A stretch of 64,000 nucleotides of DNA, taken from the NCBI GenBank assembly GCA_017860345.1, contig JAFNAV010000007.1:1-64000 (forward strand). Direction: 5' to 3'. The notes beneath the pieces were generated by a model. The model ran no database searches. It had not been told where the DNA came from and was given only the letters and a program-made list of their open reading frames with translations. Position 1 is the stretch's first letter, and each line of letters opens with the position of its first letter. The position numbers were made by a program, and so were the translations under genes. Below, piece by piece: positions 37,406-44,196 of this stretch. Source of the DNA: Bacteroidota bacterium (GTDB lineage: Bacteria > Bacteroidota > Bacteroidia > Bacteroidales > Paludibacteraceae).

Positions 37406-39715
37406 TTAATTTATCACCATTATTTTGGTGACTATGCTTTCGGTACCATCTTCGTTGACACAAAGTGCCAGATAAATTCCGGTGCTTACTTTTCTGCCAC
37501 GTGAGTTTTTCACGTCCCATACAGCCACGCCACCGTTCGATTTGGTCTCAAAAATAAGGTTGCCATTCAGGTCGGTAATTTTCACCTGTGTGTTTTTTAC
37601 CAAACCGGTAATTGTAACTACTCCTGTGTAGTTTTCGCGTACGGGGTTAGGGTACGCATGCACATCATCAAACGACTCTCCACTGGTTGTGGCATCAGCC
37701 TGATACGATATCAATCCTTTAGAAGTACCGAAAAACACTTCTCCTGTTTTGGGATTGATGCTGATAGACATGATGCTGTTGGACAACAACGGGCTGTTAT
37801 CGGCCGTGAAATGTTTAATGGTTGTTTGTCCATCGGCCGACATCAGATAAACGCCCGAACCATCTGTCCCTATCCATTTCCGGTTTGCGCCATCTATGGC
37901 TATACTTTTTATCGCTTCGCTTTGCAGAAGATAATCGGCCTGATTGGTGCCATCGTTTCGGGCTATTTTTACCCGGGTGCAGGTATATCCGCTATCAAAC
38001 ACTTTGGATGTATTGTAAAAAAGCAATGGCCCCTGATCCGTTCCTACCCAGATTACCCCGTCAGCATCCTGCGTAATGCAGTAAAAATACGATGGCGAAA
38101 TAGCCGAACCTCCATCAGCATCGGCAAAGGATGTAAAGAAAATTGATTTATCATCGCTCTGATCTTTGATAGTGCCATTGTCGGAAAACACTAATAATCC
38201 GCCGGGAGCCCGTGTTGAAAGCACCCACTTCTGGTTTGGGTCATTATCCGAAATCAGTATTTTTGAAATGGTGTATAAATTGGCATTCGGGTAGGCCAGT
38301 TGCACCCACTCGCCGGTATTGAGCAACACCTTGATTGATTTCTGCATCTCGGTATTTGTAAAAAAAAGATTGCCAGCCTTGTCGAATACGGCGCCATCTA
38401 CACGCATATACCTGTAAGGATTGGATTGAAGAATTGTTTCCACGGCACTATTCTGATAAGTGTGCCATTTTACAAGAGACTCATTTCTGAACTCATACAA
38501 ACCAGTACCATACGATGTGATAAAATAGTGTTTACTGTCGGCCGGGTCAAAAGCAATATTCATAAAGTCGTAGGGCTTATATCCGGTTACAGCCTCTATT
38601 TCATCTGACTTGATATTAGTCCATGCATTGTTTTCGTACATCATTATATGTCCCGGTCTGGCATAATCGGCTGCCCAACGGCCTCCCTGCAACACATAAA
38701 GCTTTTGGTTGGAAAAAGCCATAAACCAGGGCATATTCGTCAATGGCCCCGTAGGCATATAAGAGCGTATATCCTGATCAGCGCCGGTACATGAAATTAC
38801 GCCTTTGGCTTTGCCCGCAAACCATAAACGATTGTTTGCACCATCGTATATGGCATCAGCCACCTCGCCAATATTGGCAAGAGTGGTTTTGTTCAGGTTC
38901 TCATCCACCAGATAGGTGGTTGTAGCGTTACTGTATACAAACATTTTTTCGCCGGAAGTAAAAACTTCGCTAATGCTTGTGTCTGTCAAAACCTGAGACC
39001 AGACTCCATCGCTCAGCATAAACAAACTACCTCCACGTTGCAAAAAAAGCTTATTGTTGTAAACCAGCGCCTTACGGAACACCCCCGACCCGGGAAGATT
39101 CGTCAGCGATGTCCAGCTGGCATAATTTACCAACGACGAAGAATTTATGTCGGCGCGATAAACAGCATCGGCCGTCACAGCATAGATCATACCGGCATGC
39201 ACCACCGTATTTAACACCGTCACTTCGGTACTGTTATTGCCAATATAATAAGTTTCGGATATTTCTTTTTTCTTTAAATTAAATACCAAAATACCAAAAT
39301 TGCAGGCCAGATAAGCATTGTTGTTGTAAATACAAATATCATTAACCGCCTTATTTACGGTAAGTTGCTTATTCATATAATCCGGGATATTTACGACACC
39401 TGCTTCGGTAAGCAAGTCGATATTGCCATTGCTGTAAACAAGAAGTAACTGCTTATTTACCTGATCCATCTCTATGGCCGATACATCATTATCGCTCAAT
39501 CCGGATATTTTCGTGTATTCGTCAAGAGACTCGTCGGCACGGGATACCGTGAAAATTGCACCCTCGCTCAGGGCAAACACCTTATTGTCGGACAGCGCTA
39601 TCTGATTCACCTGACTATAAGCCAGATGAGTACGCCACTTACCCATGGCCAACTGCGCATGTAGTGATACCGAAAAACACAAAACTACAAGAATAATAAA
39701 ACAACTCCGCTTCAT
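37406..39715 (-). CDS. porZ: Type IX secretion system protein PorZ
   Basis: A 769-residue exported protein (signal ending VSLHAQLAMGKW). It is made of many short beta-propeller blades: repeated phrases such as NQIALSDNKVFALSEGAIF and IYNNNAYLACNFGILVF, with VNKQLLLVYSNGNIDLL between, as in Porphyromonas PorZ (about 780 residues). The last 90 residues are the type IX C-terminal signal domain (AYPNPVRENYTGVVTITGL, ending SIVTKIMVIN). PorZ is part of the surface complex that finishes type IX cargo and attaches it to A-LPS. No other por genes are in this window, which is normal because they are scattered in Bacteroidetes. Confidence 0.88.
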   Translation of the reverse strand: MKRSCFIILVVLCFSVSLHAQLAMGKWRTHLAYSQVNQIALSDNKVFALSEGAIFTVSRADESLDEYTKISGLSDNDVSAIEMDQVNKQLLLVYSNGNIDLLTEAGVVNIPDYMNKQLTVNKAVNDICIYNNNAYLACNFGILVFNLKKKEISETYYIGNNSTEVTVLNTVVHAGMIYAVTADAVYRADINSSSLVNYASWTSLTNLPGSGVFRKALVYNNKLFLQRGGSLFMLSDGVWSQVLTDTSISEVFTSGEKMFVYSNATTTYLVDENLNKTTLANIGEVADAIYDGANNRLWFAGKAKGVISCTGADQDIRSYMPTGPLTNMPWFMAFSNQKLYVLQGGRWAADYARPGHIMMYENNAWTNIKSDEIEAVTGYKPYDFMNIAFDPADSKHYFITSYGTGLYEFRNESLVKWHTYQNSAVETILQSNPYRYMRVDGAVFDKAGNLFFTNTEMQKSIKVLLNTGEWVQLAYPNANLYTISKILISDNDPNQKWVLSTRAPGGLLVFSDNGTIKDQSDDKSIFFTSFADADGGSAISPSYFYCITQDADGVIWVGTDQGPLLFYNTSKVFDSGYTCTRVKIARNDGTNQADYLLQSEAIKSIAIDGANRKWIGTDGSGVYLMSADGQTTIKHFTADNSPLLSNSIMSISINPKTGEVFFGTSKGLISYQADATTSGESFDDVHAYPNPVRENYTGVVTITGLVKNTQVKITDLNGNLIFETKSNGGVAVWDVKNSRGRKVSTGIYLALCVNEDGTESIVTKIMVIN

Positions 39716-39804: not shown

Positions 39805-40389
39805 TTATTGAGCTGATAAATATGCCACCAGCTTTTGTACCGCCAGGGCACGGTGACTGATTTTATTCTTAATATCGGCACCCAGTTCGGCAAAAGTCTG
39901 ATTAAAACCATCGGGCACAAAAACCGGATCGTAACCAAAACCCGTATCGCCAGATGGCTCTGTGGTAATAACGCCGTCGATACGGCCTTCGAAATAGCGA
40001 ACTTCACCCTGCTCAATCAACGCAATAACCGTACGAAAACAAGCCTTCCGGTTGGTTGCGTTACCAAGATTGGCCAAAAGTTTTTTCATATTGTTCTGTG
40101 CGTTATGATCTTCGCCGGCATAGCGGGCCGAATACACTCCGGGCGCTCCACCCAAAACCTCAACTTCTAAGCCGGTATCATCGGCAAAGCAGTCGAGTCC
40201 AAACCGCTCATACACATAACTGGCTTTAATCAGGGCATTTCCTTCAAGCGTTTCGGCCGTTTCTGGTATATCATCAAAGCATCCTATGCCGGCCAGACTT
40301 TCAATTTCGGCATCGGGAAGCATGGCCGTTACCTCCGATAGTTTGTGTGCATTGTTGGTAGCAAACACTAATTTTTTTATTCTTTGCAT
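39805..40389 (-). CDS. rdgB: XTP/dITP pyrophosphatase (Ham1/RdgB)
   Basis: A 194-residue enzyme that removes deaminated purine nucleotides (ITP, XTP). [14 protein letters not shown] holds the first nucleotide-binding residues, [20 protein letters not shown] the catalytic Asp region, [10 protein letters not shown] and [13 protein letters not shown] the base-recognition loops, and [10 protein letters not shown] the closing SHR motif. Length normal. An exact -7 box (TATCTTTG, minus strand, 40418-40425) lies 28 bases upstream. porZ follows 89 bases downstream on the same strand and could share the transcript. Confidence 0.96.
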
Positions 40390-40484: not shown

Positions 40485-41555
40485 TTACGAATTTGTAATC
40501 TTTTCCAAATGACAACAAAGGAGATTGCCGGTTTGCTCATCCCGCAAATGAAGCCCGTTGCCCTGACAGTATTTATATGATTTACACGAAGCACATTTTC
40601 CTGTTCGTGTCCAGCTCCGATTGCGCATTATCTGATACCGTTCATTCCATACGGTCATAAAATCGTCCTGATAAATATTGCCCTGAATATAATCGCCCCG
40701 TAGACTTGGGCAGGCGCTGATAGAGCCATCCACAAGAACTGATCCTATGTGAATTCCGGCCTGACAGAAAAATGGTTTATCGCGTACTTCCATTTCATAA
40801 TTGCCCAGAAAGCCTTCGCAGCCGAACGACGTTTTGATTTTTCCATCGGCACGTGTTTCTTTTATAAAATCCAAAAGGCGGACAAATTGAAGGTGAGATA
40901 ATATCAATTCGGGATGCGACGCTGCACGTCCTTTTGGGAAAATCATAAAAAGCCGCCAGTGTTTTATCCCCCTGTCAATTAGCAAAGCGCGAATTGCTTC
41001 CAAATCATCAATATTCCGTTGATTGACACAGGTAACCACATCGTAAACCAAACCCGGAGTAGTAGCCACCAAAGTGGCAGCATCGATGGCCTTTGTCCAT
41101 GAACCCTGTATACCGCGCATCCAGTCATGTGTTTCAGCATTCAGCCCGTCTATACTTACGGTTACCGAGCGAAGTCCTGCGGCAAGCAATTGATTCAGTT
41201 TAGTTCGGGTAAGTGCATAACCATTGGTTACCATTCCCCAAGGGAAACCTCGTTTATAAATTTCCATTCCGCATGCTGCCAAATCCTTGCGTAGCAAAGG
41301 CTCACCTCCTGTAAGTACAATCATGGTTTTATGAGGATTCACATACGGTTTAATATCATCGAGCACTTTCATGAAATCTTCGCCGGGCATATCAGGTACA
41401 AGCGCATCCGAGGTACAGTCACTCCCGCAATGAATGCATTTCAGGTTGCAACGCAGAGTACACTCCCAAAACAGGTAAGTGAGTTCGTGCAACTTAGCCT
41501 GATTTTTTTTATGCTGATTATAAAGTGATAGTACTAAGCTCTTTTTCAGACTCAT
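40485..41555 (-). CDS. Radical SAM/SPASM enzyme of the rSAM/lipoprotein system
   Basis: A 356-residue cytosolic enzyme. The radical SAM cluster motif is CNLKCIHC (CX3CX2C, Cys36/40/43) near the N-terminus, followed by LTGGEPLL and VSIDGLNAETHDW. The C-terminal SPASM domain (about 265-350) has Cys in KPFFCQAGI, ISACPSL and GKCASCKSYKYCQGNG, enough for one or two extra 4Fe-4S clusters. SPASM enzymes mostly modify peptides. From memory, this one belongs to a family (TIGR04133) that occurs only next to a small lipoprotein, as here; the reaction is unknown. Its start overlaps the lipoprotein stop by 4 bases. Confidence 0.88.
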   Translation of the reverse strand: MSLKKSLVLSLYNQHKKNQAKLHELTYLFWECTLRCNLKCIHCGSDCTSDALVPDMPGEDFMKVLDDIKPYVNPHKTMIVLTGGEPLLRKDLAACGMEIYKRGFPWGMVTNGYALTRTKLNQLLAAGLRSVTVSIDGLNAETHDWMRGIQGSWTKAIDAATLVATTPGLVYDVVTCVNQRNIDDLEAIRALLIDRGIKHWRLFMIFPKGRAASHPELILSHLQFVRLLDFIKETRADGKIKTSFGCEGFLGNYEMEVRDKPFFCQAGIHIGSVLVDGSISACPSLRGDYIQGNIYQDDFMTVWNERYQIMRNRSWTRTGKCASCKSYKYCQGNGLHLRDEQTGNLLCCHLEKITNS

Positions 41556-42007
41556 TTAGGTTTCATTTTTATATCCACTATTTTCACTGCCTTACCTTCG
41601 TACCAATCACCCTGACTTTTATTTACCCAATCTGTCGAAGTAATGGTCACACTTTTCTCTTGAGCTTCAAACTCTCCTCCATTATTTACTCCGTCAATAT
41701 CCTCTATTTTAAGCGTAAATTCAGTATATGCAAAGTCATTGAATTCTATTTTGTATGTACCGTCAGCACCAGTGTAAACAGTGTCAATCGCACCATAAAG
41801 CGGATTTTCTTTGCTTCGGGAAATAACGCGAATATTTTTCAATGGGCTACCCAGAACACTGTCGGTTATCGTTCCGTTAAACTGATAGTCGGCGTTTGGA
41901 GTACCATATTCAGCCGGTTCGTTGACATCGCACGAACCTAATCCCATGAATGCTAAAATAAAAATAAGTAGCTTATCCAGTAGTTTGAGTCCTTTTCTTA
42001 TAATCAT
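41552..42007 (-). CDS. Radical SAM-associated putative lipoprotein
   Basis: A 151-residue lipoprotein (MIIRKGLKLLDKLLIF, then MGLGSCDVNEP, lipidated Cys near residue 26). Just after the Cys comes the short motif PAEYGTPNADYQFNG, then a carboxypeptidase-regulatory-like beta-sandwich (GTITDSVLGSPLKNIRVIS to the end). From memory this is the partner family (TIGR04134) of the adjacent radical SAM enzyme; the conserved YGTPxA motif is the obvious place for a modification, which is inference. It is translationally coupled on both sides (4-base overlaps at 41552-41555 and 42004-42007). Confidence 0.85.
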   Translation of the reverse strand: MIIRKGLKLLDKLLIFILAFMGLGSCDVNEPAEYGTPNADYQFNGTITDSVLGSPLKNIRVISRSKENPLYGAIDTVYTGADGTYKIEFNDFAYTEFTLKIEDIDGVNNGGEFEAQEKSVTITSTDWVNKSQGDWYEGKAVKIVDIKMKPK

Positions 42008-42189
42008 TGTATCTTGTTTTGAGTATCAATCTGAGCTGTTGGCGTGCCATACATAGGCTGTACCCCATACTCCGGAACAGGCTGGGAAGGCTCCGGGTCG
42101 TCGCAGGCCGTAAAAAACGAGAAAAGAGCGATAACAATTAATTTATCGTAAAACCGAATTAGAAAGTGATTTTTTCGTTTATTTTTCAT
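42004..42189 (-). CDS. Mini-lipoprotein with the YGTPTA motif (second partner of the radical SAM enzyme)
   Basis: A 61-residue product from ATG 42187-42189 (a second ATG at 42202-42204 would add five residues). It has the same N-terminal design as the next gene: basic start, NHFLIRFYDKLIVIALF, FFTACDDPEP with lipidated Cys near 29, then PEYGVQPMYGTPTAQID. It stops directly after this motif, so it lacks the beta-sandwich of its neighbour. It therefore looks like a bare leader plus motif, the form expected of a modified peptide. Its stop overlaps the next start by 4 bases. It might instead be the decayed remains of a duplicate. Confidence 0.7.
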   Translation of the reverse strand: MKNKRKNHFLIRFYDKLIVIALFSFFTACDDPEPSQPVPEYGVQPMYGTPTAQIDTQNKIQ

Positions 42190-42281
42190 AAAATGAAAAT
42201 ACATTTAATCTAATAGATGCAAAAAAACTTATTTTCGTTGCTAATATGCTCCCTTAATTAACGGAAATCTTTTTTTTCGAC

Positions 42282-42317: not shown

Positions 42318-43157
42318 ATGCGTAAAACAACCATATATTTATTATTAATGTTGTCGGCCTGCATGCAGGCTCAAACCGACAAGTTGTATCCACTTATTAC
42401 AGCTGCCGACCAAATAGGACTATCCTCCATACAATTGCGCGATCCCTACCTTTCGCCACTCTATTACAATGGCGCAGGACTCAAATATGTGCATACCCAG
42501 CAACGATTTTTCAACCCGGAAAACAACACCCTGTCCATGGAGTCGAAGGCCTCGGCGTTGGTAGGATATACCGTAAACGAACCGTACTCAGCTGCCATTA
42601 TGTATGTTGGAGGCGATTATCGCTGGGGGGCATTTTATCATTTCAGGCTACAACCCCGCTTGCAGTTGCTGGCCGGAGGAAATATCAATGCCGGCTTTGG
42701 ATACAAATATAATTCGCGCAATGTAAACAATCCGGTAAACGTAGATGTGGCCGTCAACCTGAATTTGGCCGGAAAGCTCAGGTACGACGCTCAAATATTT
42801 AAACGCACTGTACGCCTTACTTACGCTTTCGACAGTCCGCTGGCCGGATGTATGTATGTGCCTTTGGTGGATGCTTCGTACTACGAAATGTTTGGACTGG
42901 GCAATATGACCGACGCTGTACATTTTAGTTCGCTGCATAACAAGCAGGGACTTAATTCTGAATTTACAATGGATGTTCCCTTTAACCGCTCGGTTTTGCG
43001 CGTAGGGCTTCATGTTAATAATCTGAAGTATCAGGCCAACGATATTATTTTTAAATTTCAGGAAGTTGGCTTTACTCTGGGTTGGAAGTATAATTTTTAT
43101 GTTTTCTCGGGACGTAAAAATCAGGCGCCGAAAAATTTTATCAGCACCGAAGAATGA
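42318..43157 (+). CDS. Outer-membrane protein, DUF3316-like
   Basis: A 279-residue exported protein (signal ending MQAQTDK). After IGLSSIQLRDPYLSPLYYNG it shows about ten amphipathic strands, for example AIMYVGGDYRWGAFYHFRL and LLAGGNINAGFGYKYNSR, in keeping with a beta barrel. The LSSIQLRDPYLSPL...G phrase agrees with my memory of DUF3316 of Bacteroidetes; function unknown. It is separated by 25 bases from the S41 peptidase gene, so the two envelope proteins are probably made together. Confidence 0.72.
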   Translation: MRKTTIYLLLMLSACMQAQTDKLYPLITAADQIGLSSIQLRDPYLSPLYYNGAGLKYVHTQQRFFNPENNTLSMESKASALVGYTVNEPYSAAIMYVGGDYRWGAFYHFRLQPRLQLLAGGNINAGFGYKYNSRNVNNPVNVDVAVNLNLAGKLRYDAQIFKRTVRLTYAFDSPLAGCMYVPLVDASYYEMFGLGNMTDAVHFSSLHNKQGLNSEFTMDVPFNRSVLRVGLHVNNLKYQANDIIFKFQEVGFTLGWKYNFYVFSGRKNQAPKNFISTEE

Positions 43158-43182
43158 TTTTTTTAAAACGAATACAAGCTTC

Positions 43183-44196
43183 ATGAAAAAAATTTTGCTC
43201 AGCATAGTATCCGCCTGTACATTGTTCTGGTTCAGCTCCTGCATAGATGAACCCGAAATTTATGCCAACGACAATCAGGGCAATTTTGAAGCTCTGTGGG
43301 ATATTATTGACACCAGATACTGTTATCTCAGTTACAAAAACATCAACTGGGACTCTATACATACTGCTTATGCTCAAAAGTTTAATAAAAATACTTCTGA
43401 GCAGGATATGTTTAATATACTGGGCGAAATGCTGGCCGAACTCAAAGACGGACACGTAAACCTATACTCCGACTTCGACCGTAGCCGATACTGGAAATGG
43501 TTTACCGACTACCCCGACAACTTCAACCCCGACCTGATATATACCGACCGTTACCTGAGCGACGATTATCAAATTGCCGGCGGTATGCGTTATGCCAAAA
43601 TTGCCAACGGTAAAGTAGGGTACATTTATTACGGCGATTTCTCAAGCTATTTTACCGATGCAAACATCAGCTATATACTCAATTCATTCAGAGATTGCAA
43701 CGGACTCATAATCGATGTGCGTGGTAATGGCGGAGGGTATCTGAGTCTGGCAGGACAATTGGCTTCTTACTTTTTCAGCAAAGAAACTCTGACCGGATAC
43801 ATGCAACACAAAAACGGCAATGGACACGACGATTTCTCGAAACCGGTAGAACTGAAGACTTCTGCTCACAAAACCATACAGTGGCAACGCCCTGTGATTA
43901 TCCTATCCAACAGGCATGCTTACAGCGCCACCAATTCATTTATAAGCAGAATGAAACTGGCTCCCTACGCCCTGATTGTAGGCGACAAATCCGGAGGAGG
44001 TGGAGGTATGCCCCTATCGAGCGAACTACCCAATGGCTGGATGGTACGCTTTTCGTCGAGCCCTATGTTCGATGCCGGCATGAACCACATCGAATGGGGT
44101 ATCGACCCCGATGTAAAGGTAGATATGAGCAGCGAAGATCAGACCAACGGATACGATACCATCATTGAAAAAGCAGTGCAAATTCTTACACGATGA
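43183..44196 (+). CDS. S41-family (C-terminal processing type) peptidase, lipoprotein
   Basis: A 337-residue protein with a lipoprotein signal (MKKILLSIVSA, FWFSSCIDEP, Cys near residue 20). The helical N-part has LWDIIDTRYCYLSYKNINWD; a divergent PDZ-like part follows; the catalytic domain shows IDVRGNGGGYLSLAGQ, then ILSNRHAYSATNSFISRMK with the nucleophile Ser, and GDKSGGGGGMPLSSELPNG. A lysine partner normally 25 residues after the Ser is met by Lys in DKSGG. The mode of action is presumably degradation of mis-sorted envelope proteins or peptides. The ATG at 43183 starts the signal; the longer frame runs back into the previous gene. Confidence 0.87.
   Translation: MKKILLSIVSACTLFWFSSCIDEPEIYANDNQGNFEALWDIIDTRYCYLSYKNINWDSIHTAYAQKFNKNTSEQDMFNILGEMLAELKDGHVNLYSDFDRSRYWKWFTDYPDNFNPDLIYTDRYLSDDYQIAGGMRYAKIANGKVGYIYYGDFSSYFTDANISYILNSFRDCNGLIIDVRGNGGGYLSLAGQLASYFFSKETLTGYMQHKNGNGHDDFSKPVELKTSAHKTIQWQRPVIILSNRHAYSATNSFISRMKLAPYALIVGDKSGGGGGMPLSSELPNGWMVRFSSSPMFDAGMNHIEWGIDPDVKVDMSSEDQTNGYDTIIEKAVQILTR

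Follow-up and report, generated by a model that had tools for sequence, protein, structure and literature searches.

The window, a 64,000-nucleotide stretch of DNA from a Bacteroidales bacterium, carries on its minus strand a cassette of three genes, which encode a mini-lipoprotein, a 151-residue lipoprotein and a radical SAM/SPASM enzyme. Its features are:

42004..42204, minus strand: mini-lipoprotein gene, 66 amino acids from the outer ATG; signal peptide with the lipobox FTAC, mature form of 33 residues (CDDPEPSQPVPEYGVQPMYGTPTAQIDTQNKIQ)
42004..42007, minus strand: ATGA overlap of the mini-lipoprotein stop codon with the start of the 151-residue lipoprotein gene
41552..42007, minus strand: gene for the 151-residue lipoprotein (TIGR04134), with the lipobox LGSC and the motif EYGTPNADY
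41552..41555, minus strand: ATGA overlap of the stop codon of the 151-residue lipoprotein gene with the start of the enzyme gene
40485..41555, minus strand: gene for the radical SAM/SPASM enzyme (TIGR04133), 356 amino acids

The preliminary description of this DNA had recognized three overlapping genes, among them those of a 151-residue lipoprotein with EYGTPNADY and a SPASM enzyme, and all of this holds, with ATGA overlaps at both junctions. The enzyme is a member of TIGR04133 (548.6 bits, curated cut-off 425) and the 151-residue protein a member of TIGR04134 (114.5 bits, curated cut-off 39.8). The enzyme has a CX3CX2C motif (CNLKCIHCGSDC), an EGFLGNYE signature and a SPASM domain (PF13186) with a partial set of SPASM cysteines. 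The mini-lipoprotein matched no NCBIfam or Pfam family, TIGR04134 included, at E values up to 1. The length of 61 residues given for it earlier applies from an inner ATG at 42189. It does not end right after MYGTPTAQID, as had been stated, since six more residues (TQNKIQ) are present. The YGTPxA motif described in it is there, but it is one of two X-Tyr-Gly motifs in the mature form, EYG and MYG, which stand in tandem (EYGVQPMYGTP). Both lie within PEYGVQPMYGTP, and we propose EYGVQPMYGTPTAQ as a candidate substrate peptide for the TIGR04133 enzyme.

Past the 3′ end of the cassette lies a Ham1-family gene (39805-40389), which adjoins a gene for a PorZ-like protein of the type IX secretion system (37406-39715, minus strand; PF21544, 139 bits). 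A DUF3316 gene (42318-43157) is located between the cassette and a divergent gene, about 1 kb from the cassette, for a predicted lipoprotein peptidase of family S41 with a Tricorn C1 domain (43066-44196, plus strand). At the gathering score, Rfam matched no element of the window, and a scan of the window for consensus promoters and terminators was uninformative, with results below those of shuffles.

A gene as short as that of the mini-lipoprotein, with no family model and adjoining an intact TIGR04134 gene, could be a decayed and functionless copy of the larger lipoprotein, and 10 of the 16 enzyme loci that we sampled from the genus (the window and a second copy in its own genome counted) are without it. 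It is found at the other six, namely the window and L001, L168, L172, L173 and L212, and is short at all of them. The five relatives encode lipoproteins of 63-83 residues that have the tandem pattern Y-G-h-x-P-[ML]-Y-G and are positioned two genes before the enzyme, or three in L168. A Bacteroidetes genome that is less closely related (L003) has a similar 67-residue mini-lipoprotein, encoded by a gene overlapping that of the lipoprotein. The case that would have told against the gene, a disrupted copy with intact orthologues in relatives, was not encountered, and we rejected the disrupted-copy reading because the genus orthologues are uniformly short and carry the tandem motif. Given also that lipoproteins with a Tyr-Gly (YG) motif and no recognizable domain accompany 45 of 183 enzyme loci (43 by the detector described below, and L079 and L204 by eye), and that this label requires 26 changes on the enzyme tree, the decayed copy is, by sequence comparison, hardly tenable and extremely improbable. 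The frequency of the short copy, a question raised in the preliminary description, is 6 of 16 sampled loci in the genus; across TIGR04133, 45 of 183 loci have a domainless YG lipoprotein. The acidic residues just after the lipid cysteine of the genus mini-lipoproteins presumably resemble the surface-export signals of Bacteroidota.

TIGR04133 enzymes (E up to 1e-60) were found in 91 of 200 sampled genomes of the family and in about a quarter (97 of 393) of those sampled from the order. Of 296 genomes sampled across the phylum, only that of the window and one other had such an enzyme. The second copy in the window's own genome (L084, 3191-4600 of contig C39; 482.8 bits) is paired with a 119-residue lipoprotein in which the motif comes straight after the lipid cysteine (CYGTPQDF). 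A TIGR04133/TIGR04134 pair, the lipoprotein of which reads CYGMPENYY, also occurs on a plasmid of the spirochaete Treponema saccharophilum (L290, 2601-4077), probably by horizontal transfer.

Loci were fetched with low scorers (e.g., G082, G186, G275 and G329) and repeats of some genera left out. The 215 distinct enzyme copies were reduced to 198 by collapsing near-duplicates and to 183 by leaving out 15 with less than 1 kb of upstream sequence. An apparently exported protein with a YG motif is encoded at 175 of the 183 loci. A detector that accepts YG at any position of the mature protein found 159 of these, and the other 16 were recognized by eye among the 24 loci that the strict detector missed; at the remaining eight (L012, L016, L096, L101, L127, L164, L201 and L217) no such protein was seen by eye. 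According to the detector, 133 loci have a TIGR04134-like YG lipoprotein, 43 a domainless one and 17 both. YG is present in 164 of the 169 TIGR04134-like lipoproteins encoded in cis (154 of them near the mature start) and YG.P in 148; five lack YG and 16 more lack YG.P. A motif-less TIGR04134-like lipoprotein is encoded directly before the enzyme in L168 (genome G583) and in L165 (genome G492).

The sharing of the motif in the cassette is more than chance. Of 72 short ORFs that resemble lipoproteins, have no recognizable domain and lie in cis to TIGR04133, 44 contain YG.P and 58 contain YG, as compared to means of 0.8 (maximum 6) and 7.4 (maximum 16), respectively, in 1000 residue shuffles of the same ORFs, and to 1 and 6 of 50 control ORFs on the opposite strand. 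Within the window, 16 ORFs passed a lipobox filter; in the first 70 mature residues, five have YG and two have YG.P, the latter being the mini-lipoprotein and the 151-residue lipoprotein.

The YGTPxA motif of the preliminary description can be refined. Its core is YG, which is fixed in our motif set because YG was the selection criterion. Pro is frequent at position 4 (83% of 171 N-terminal motifs of domain proteins and 66% of 90 motifs of mini-lipoproteins), an aromatic residue occupies position 8 in 61% and 38%, respectively, and the Ala is not general. The residue X before Tyr is K29 M18 L7 E2 C2 A1 V1 at 60 mini-lipoprotein sites and E70 C27 M20 A11 K9 L6 V4, with rare others, at 154 domain-protein sites; such variability is as expected of a splice site. 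At least two YG motifs are present in 24 of 59 YG-bearing mini-lipoproteins and at least two YG.P motifs in 11 of the 59, with up to four in one chain, like the repeated cores of multi-core precursors.

The scaffolds that carry the motif differ. In the model of the 151-residue protein, a transthyretin/CnaB-like beta sandwich (pLDDT 86.5), the first beta strand opens at residue 38 and EYGTPNADY sits where it begins, the motif being residues 34-41. A PDB sequence search with this protein returned one insignificant match. Elsewhere the motif is found on short tethers and on lipoproteins the sequences of which look helical (L086, L104 and L108). It had been described as tied to the lipid anchor, a link that did not survive the survey, as motif proteins in L097, L107, L190, L193, L260, L261 and L307 have no lipid cysteine. 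In L097, L107 and L117, a downstream non-lipoprotein of about 240-280 residues has the motif after an apparent type I signal peptide (AQYGAP/AQYGSW). Substrate type follows enzyme clade: the separation of rows with Cys-Tyr-Gly (CYG) from those with mini-lipoproteins needs 5 changes on the enzyme tree and 31 in shuffles, the 90 other rows not being counted, and over all 183 rows CYG needs 11 changes, with near-copies adding to such clustering.

Two candidate modifications were set aside. The lipid cysteine was rejected as the modified residue in general because YG lies 1 to 80 residues past it in mini-lipoproteins and several motif proteins do not have it. Sactipeptide or ranthipeptide thioethers were rejected, as the motif has no conserved cysteine.

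Unlinked TIGR04134 homologues offer a natural comparison between genomes with the enzyme and genomes in which it was not found. YG.P is kept in 20 of 22 such homologues from TIGR04133-positive genomes, the motif-less exceptions being one of two in L265 and the one in L272; L254, counted as unlinked, has its enzyme no more than about 3.5 kb away. Where the enzyme was not found (E up to 1e-15), YG.P is kept in two of nine, L258 (from a genome 76% complete) and L289 (at a contig start), and lost in L255, L256, L257, L275, L276, L277 and L281. The difference is significant when kinship is ignored (Fisher p 4.2e-4). Part of the listed matches was taken for this test, and motifs were called yes or no by eye. 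Left out were L278 and L279, which adjoin enzyme fragments, and, as weak or multidomain, L280 and L282-L288 (L285 and L287 being without the motif). L259 was removed because its orthologue in G583 (63% identity), a paralogue that adjoins the enzyme there, has no motif either; its removal weakens the test only slightly, the counts being 2 of 10 and p 1.6e-4 if it is taken as a loss. L259 survives in G531, a genome in which the enzyme was not found. In G022, a CYGTPQDF lipoprotein (L279) is encoded next to an enzyme gene of which the SPASM end alone was found, which looks like recent loss or misassembly.

These data also bear on the possibility that YGxP is merely a docking or recognition element, for the enzyme or for an envelope partner, with the modified residue elsewhere or absent. 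Neither the Pro nor the aromatic residue at position 8 is invariant, although both are conserved, a pattern that recognition elements often show. However, the mini-lipoproteins share little else, and their motifs are repeated within single chains. Moreover, two homologues from genomes in which the enzyme was not found have lost the Tyr while neighbouring motif letters stay (NGSPYAKF in L275 and NKTPHADY in L276); in L277, YG is kept, and Pro and the lipid cysteine are absent. We therefore consider pure docking improbable. By comparison it is very probable that the enzyme targets the YG motif, as first proposed, with the qualifications that the Ala is not general and that the lipid anchor is dispensable. 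The proposal that the mini-lipoprotein may be a minimal substrate is likewise well supported by these comparisons.

What the enzyme does at this site may be suggested by its kinship. After TIGR04133, the profiles that best match the window enzyme are TIGR04053, AhbD and NirJ2, followed by TIGR04103 (nif11-class maturase 3), which we take to be the PlpX family (IPR026482). The TIGR04103 score of 123 bits places the enzyme far below the cut-off of that family (725), and given that TIGR04053, AhbD and NirJ2 score slightly above it, PlpX is not set apart by the profile scores. A tree of 21 rows separates TIGR04133 together with TIGR04103/TIGR03913 from MftC, TIGR04053 and AhbD-like rows with support of 100/98, and a wider tree of 30 rows recovers the same grouping at 90/77; both trees are unrooted and small, and their rows exclude PlpX itself. 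With at most one exception allowed in each group, the columns common to TIGR04133 and TIGR04103/TIGR03913 and rare elsewhere are G44, S45 (HCGS), W200, A211, G248 and E254. The region of the last two reads EGFLGNYE in the window enzyme and IGYYGPYE in Nostoc. The CX2CX5CX3C stretch of the SPASM region ends in a Cys that the TIGR04103/TIGR03913 rows have and TIGR04133 lacks. TIGR04103 itself gave one related match below cut-off among 267 Bacteroidota genomes. The sequence comparisons show that a motif common to differing scaffolds follows the enzyme, and that the enzyme groups with TIGR04103/TIGR03913 in these small trees.

PlpX is a SPASM radical SAM enzyme that works together with PlpY, an RRE protein; tyramine is cut out of Xaa-Tyr-Gly, and the two ends are joined again as an alpha-keto amide (PMC11002830). 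The natural PlpXY sites are MYG and LYG, the leader is dispensable, the tags tried include GPIRPLYGLPI, and most placements in FtsZ were unmodified (PMC10533398). Several splicing events per precursor and products that inhibit proteases are also reported (PMC10373908, PMC11117315).

We read one precursor of a TIGR04103 enzyme that scores above the cut-off. At this Nostoc plasmid locus (enzyme 853 bits), a small gene follows the enzyme and a Nif11 precursor precedes it, the C-terminal end of which is RGSIALYGLPPELF (ALYGLPPELF). The ending GGRGSIALYGLPPELF conforms to YGxPPxxF and may be compared to the mini-lipoprotein cores MYGVPPARF (L010) and LYGPPPARY (L067). In an Agathobacter relative, the enzyme of which is the best by E value (7e-37) outside TIGR04133 among the plasmid matches listed, an unannotated upstream ORF ends in VMYGTGVRM. 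Matches to the Nostoc enzyme were also found on viral contigs (20 loci, with 26-38% identity over short parts).

The cassette and the PlpX/PlpY spliceases have in common a radical SAM/SPASM enzyme with the HCGS and G..G..E signature and an X-Tyr-Gly site, which is present in both cassette partners (EYG and MYG in the mini-lipoprotein, EYG in the 151-residue protein), and LYGLP occurs both in the tags tried with PlpX and in the Nostoc TIGR04103 precursor. Unlike splicease precursors, the partners of TIGR04133 are exported and mostly lipid-anchored; NCBIfam and Pfam identified no Nif11 or nitrile-hydratase-like (NHLP) leader in them, and lipoprotein signal peptides take its place. The cassette enzyme also differs in its score far below the TIGR04103 cut-off and in the one missing SPASM cysteine. 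The TIGR03913 GDL-motif system is similar in that its enzyme belongs to the same tree group and is preceded by short peptides with Y[GAM] near the N-terminus, whereas these partners are annotated as DUF1843 peptides, have no lipobox that we could see, and have YG near the start in four of the eight read. We know of no reaction for this system. On a plasmid of Tropicibacter oceani (L296), a TIGR03913/04103-like radical SAM gene lies in a run with trypsin-like and M23 peptidase genes.

The enzyme might instead perform other chemistry at the YG motif, such as closing a three-residue cyclophane or altering the backbone at Gly or Pro. Like TIGR04133, the triceptide (3-CyFE) maturases are SPASM enzymes, and they are able to use Tyr in a short motif; the links made by SPASM enzymes include that of Tyr to the C-beta of residue i+2 (PMC11002830), which is the cyclophane meant. 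The peptide cyclase SuiB also ranks first among solved structures in a fold search with the enzyme model, which is of moderate quality (pLDDT 67.9). However, residue i+2 is very variable in the 90 mini-lipoprotein motifs, with Pro in 24% and Gly in 3% (e.g., KYGGPPVDY). The other motifs offer a C-beta at i+2, but Gly has none, so that YGGP in TIGR04133 mini-lipoproteins disfavours the cyclophane. Given also that the tree and the motif indicate PlpX-like enzymes, we regard other chemistry as unlikely.

By analogy, tyramine excision of the PlpX kind is the reaction we favour for TIGR04133, although with reservations. It would probably show as a mass shift of -135.0757 Da at X-Tyr-Gly. We accordingly lean towards viewing the cassette as encoding a PlpX-like radical SAM splicease together with two exported protein substrates. 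In this scenario, TIGR04133 would recognize X-Tyr-Gly-x-Pro stretches in the cytoplasm, ahead of export, and X-Tyr-Gly would lose tyramine, leaving an alpha-keto-beta-amino residue in the lipoprotein. After export and lipidation, the edited site would be presented in the envelope, carried by a beta sandwich in the case of the 151-residue protein and by little beyond a tether in that of the mini-lipoprotein, which would offer two sites, with X being Glu and Met. A splicease-like activity that introduces alpha-keto-beta-amino residues into lipoproteins is our inference, as are the moment at which it would act and the purpose that it would serve, namely ketoamide display and perhaps protease inhibition.

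Several observations speak against tyramine excision. PlpX works with PlpY, yet no PlpY/RRE-like gene is present among the three cassette genes, the neighbours being PorZ, Ham1, DUF3316 and S41 genes. The lipid-anchor cysteine itself takes the place of X in the CYG class, where splicing should interfere with lipoprotein processing. Motif-less paralogues adjoin the enzyme in G583 and G492. Finally, two motif-less unlinked proteins coexist with the enzyme, and two motif-bearing ones occur where it was not found.

The orphan radical SAM/lipoprotein pair and splicease chemistry for peptides and engineered proteins are already known; to the preliminary description this analysis adds the match of X-Tyr-Gly to the PlpX-type splicease site. 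Both larger cassette genes score far above the cut-offs of their TIGR04133 and TIGR04134 models, which are hypothetical equivalogs with neither reaction nor site, and the mini-lipoprotein is outside all NCBIfam and Pfam models. The literature searched had no mention of TIGR04133, TIGR04103 or TIGR04134 (IPR026482 was found), and none of the combination of a splicease with lipoproteins, the mini-lipoprotein class or the motif loss; Scott et al. 2022 was outside this search. The title of that paper (Chem 8:2659) is said to cover proteins, and it may already include TIGR04133 splicing.

Since the cassette motif is the site spliced by a known and apparently related enzyme, the two lipoproteins may be edited chemically and then held at the membrane, perhaps as inhibitors of proteases. 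It is conceivable, if doubtful, that TIGR04133 cassettes produce envelope-tethered alpha-ketoamide proteins in which X-Tyr-Gly becomes an electrophilic warhead and X, as P1, sets the target protease, with multi-site mini-lipoproteins, among them that of the window (X being Glu and Met), as membrane-anchored multi-warhead inhibitors. Alpha-ketoamides able to inhibit proteases with X as P1 are a similarly tentative suggestion, which the spectrum of X (K, M, L, E and A) would fit. For the TIGR04133/TIGR04134 pair, an orphan enzyme and lipoprotein, we can thus propose in concrete terms a reaction, the site at which it would occur and the expected change in mass (-135.08 Da). If true, the 33-residue mini-lipoprotein would be a natural substrate for mechanistic work, and surface-displayed ketoamide inhibitors with variable P1 would become available for consideration. 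Protein backbone splicing would then be more than a route to peptide natural products; it would take in lipoproteins of the envelope and be a common way to arm those of Bacteroidales.
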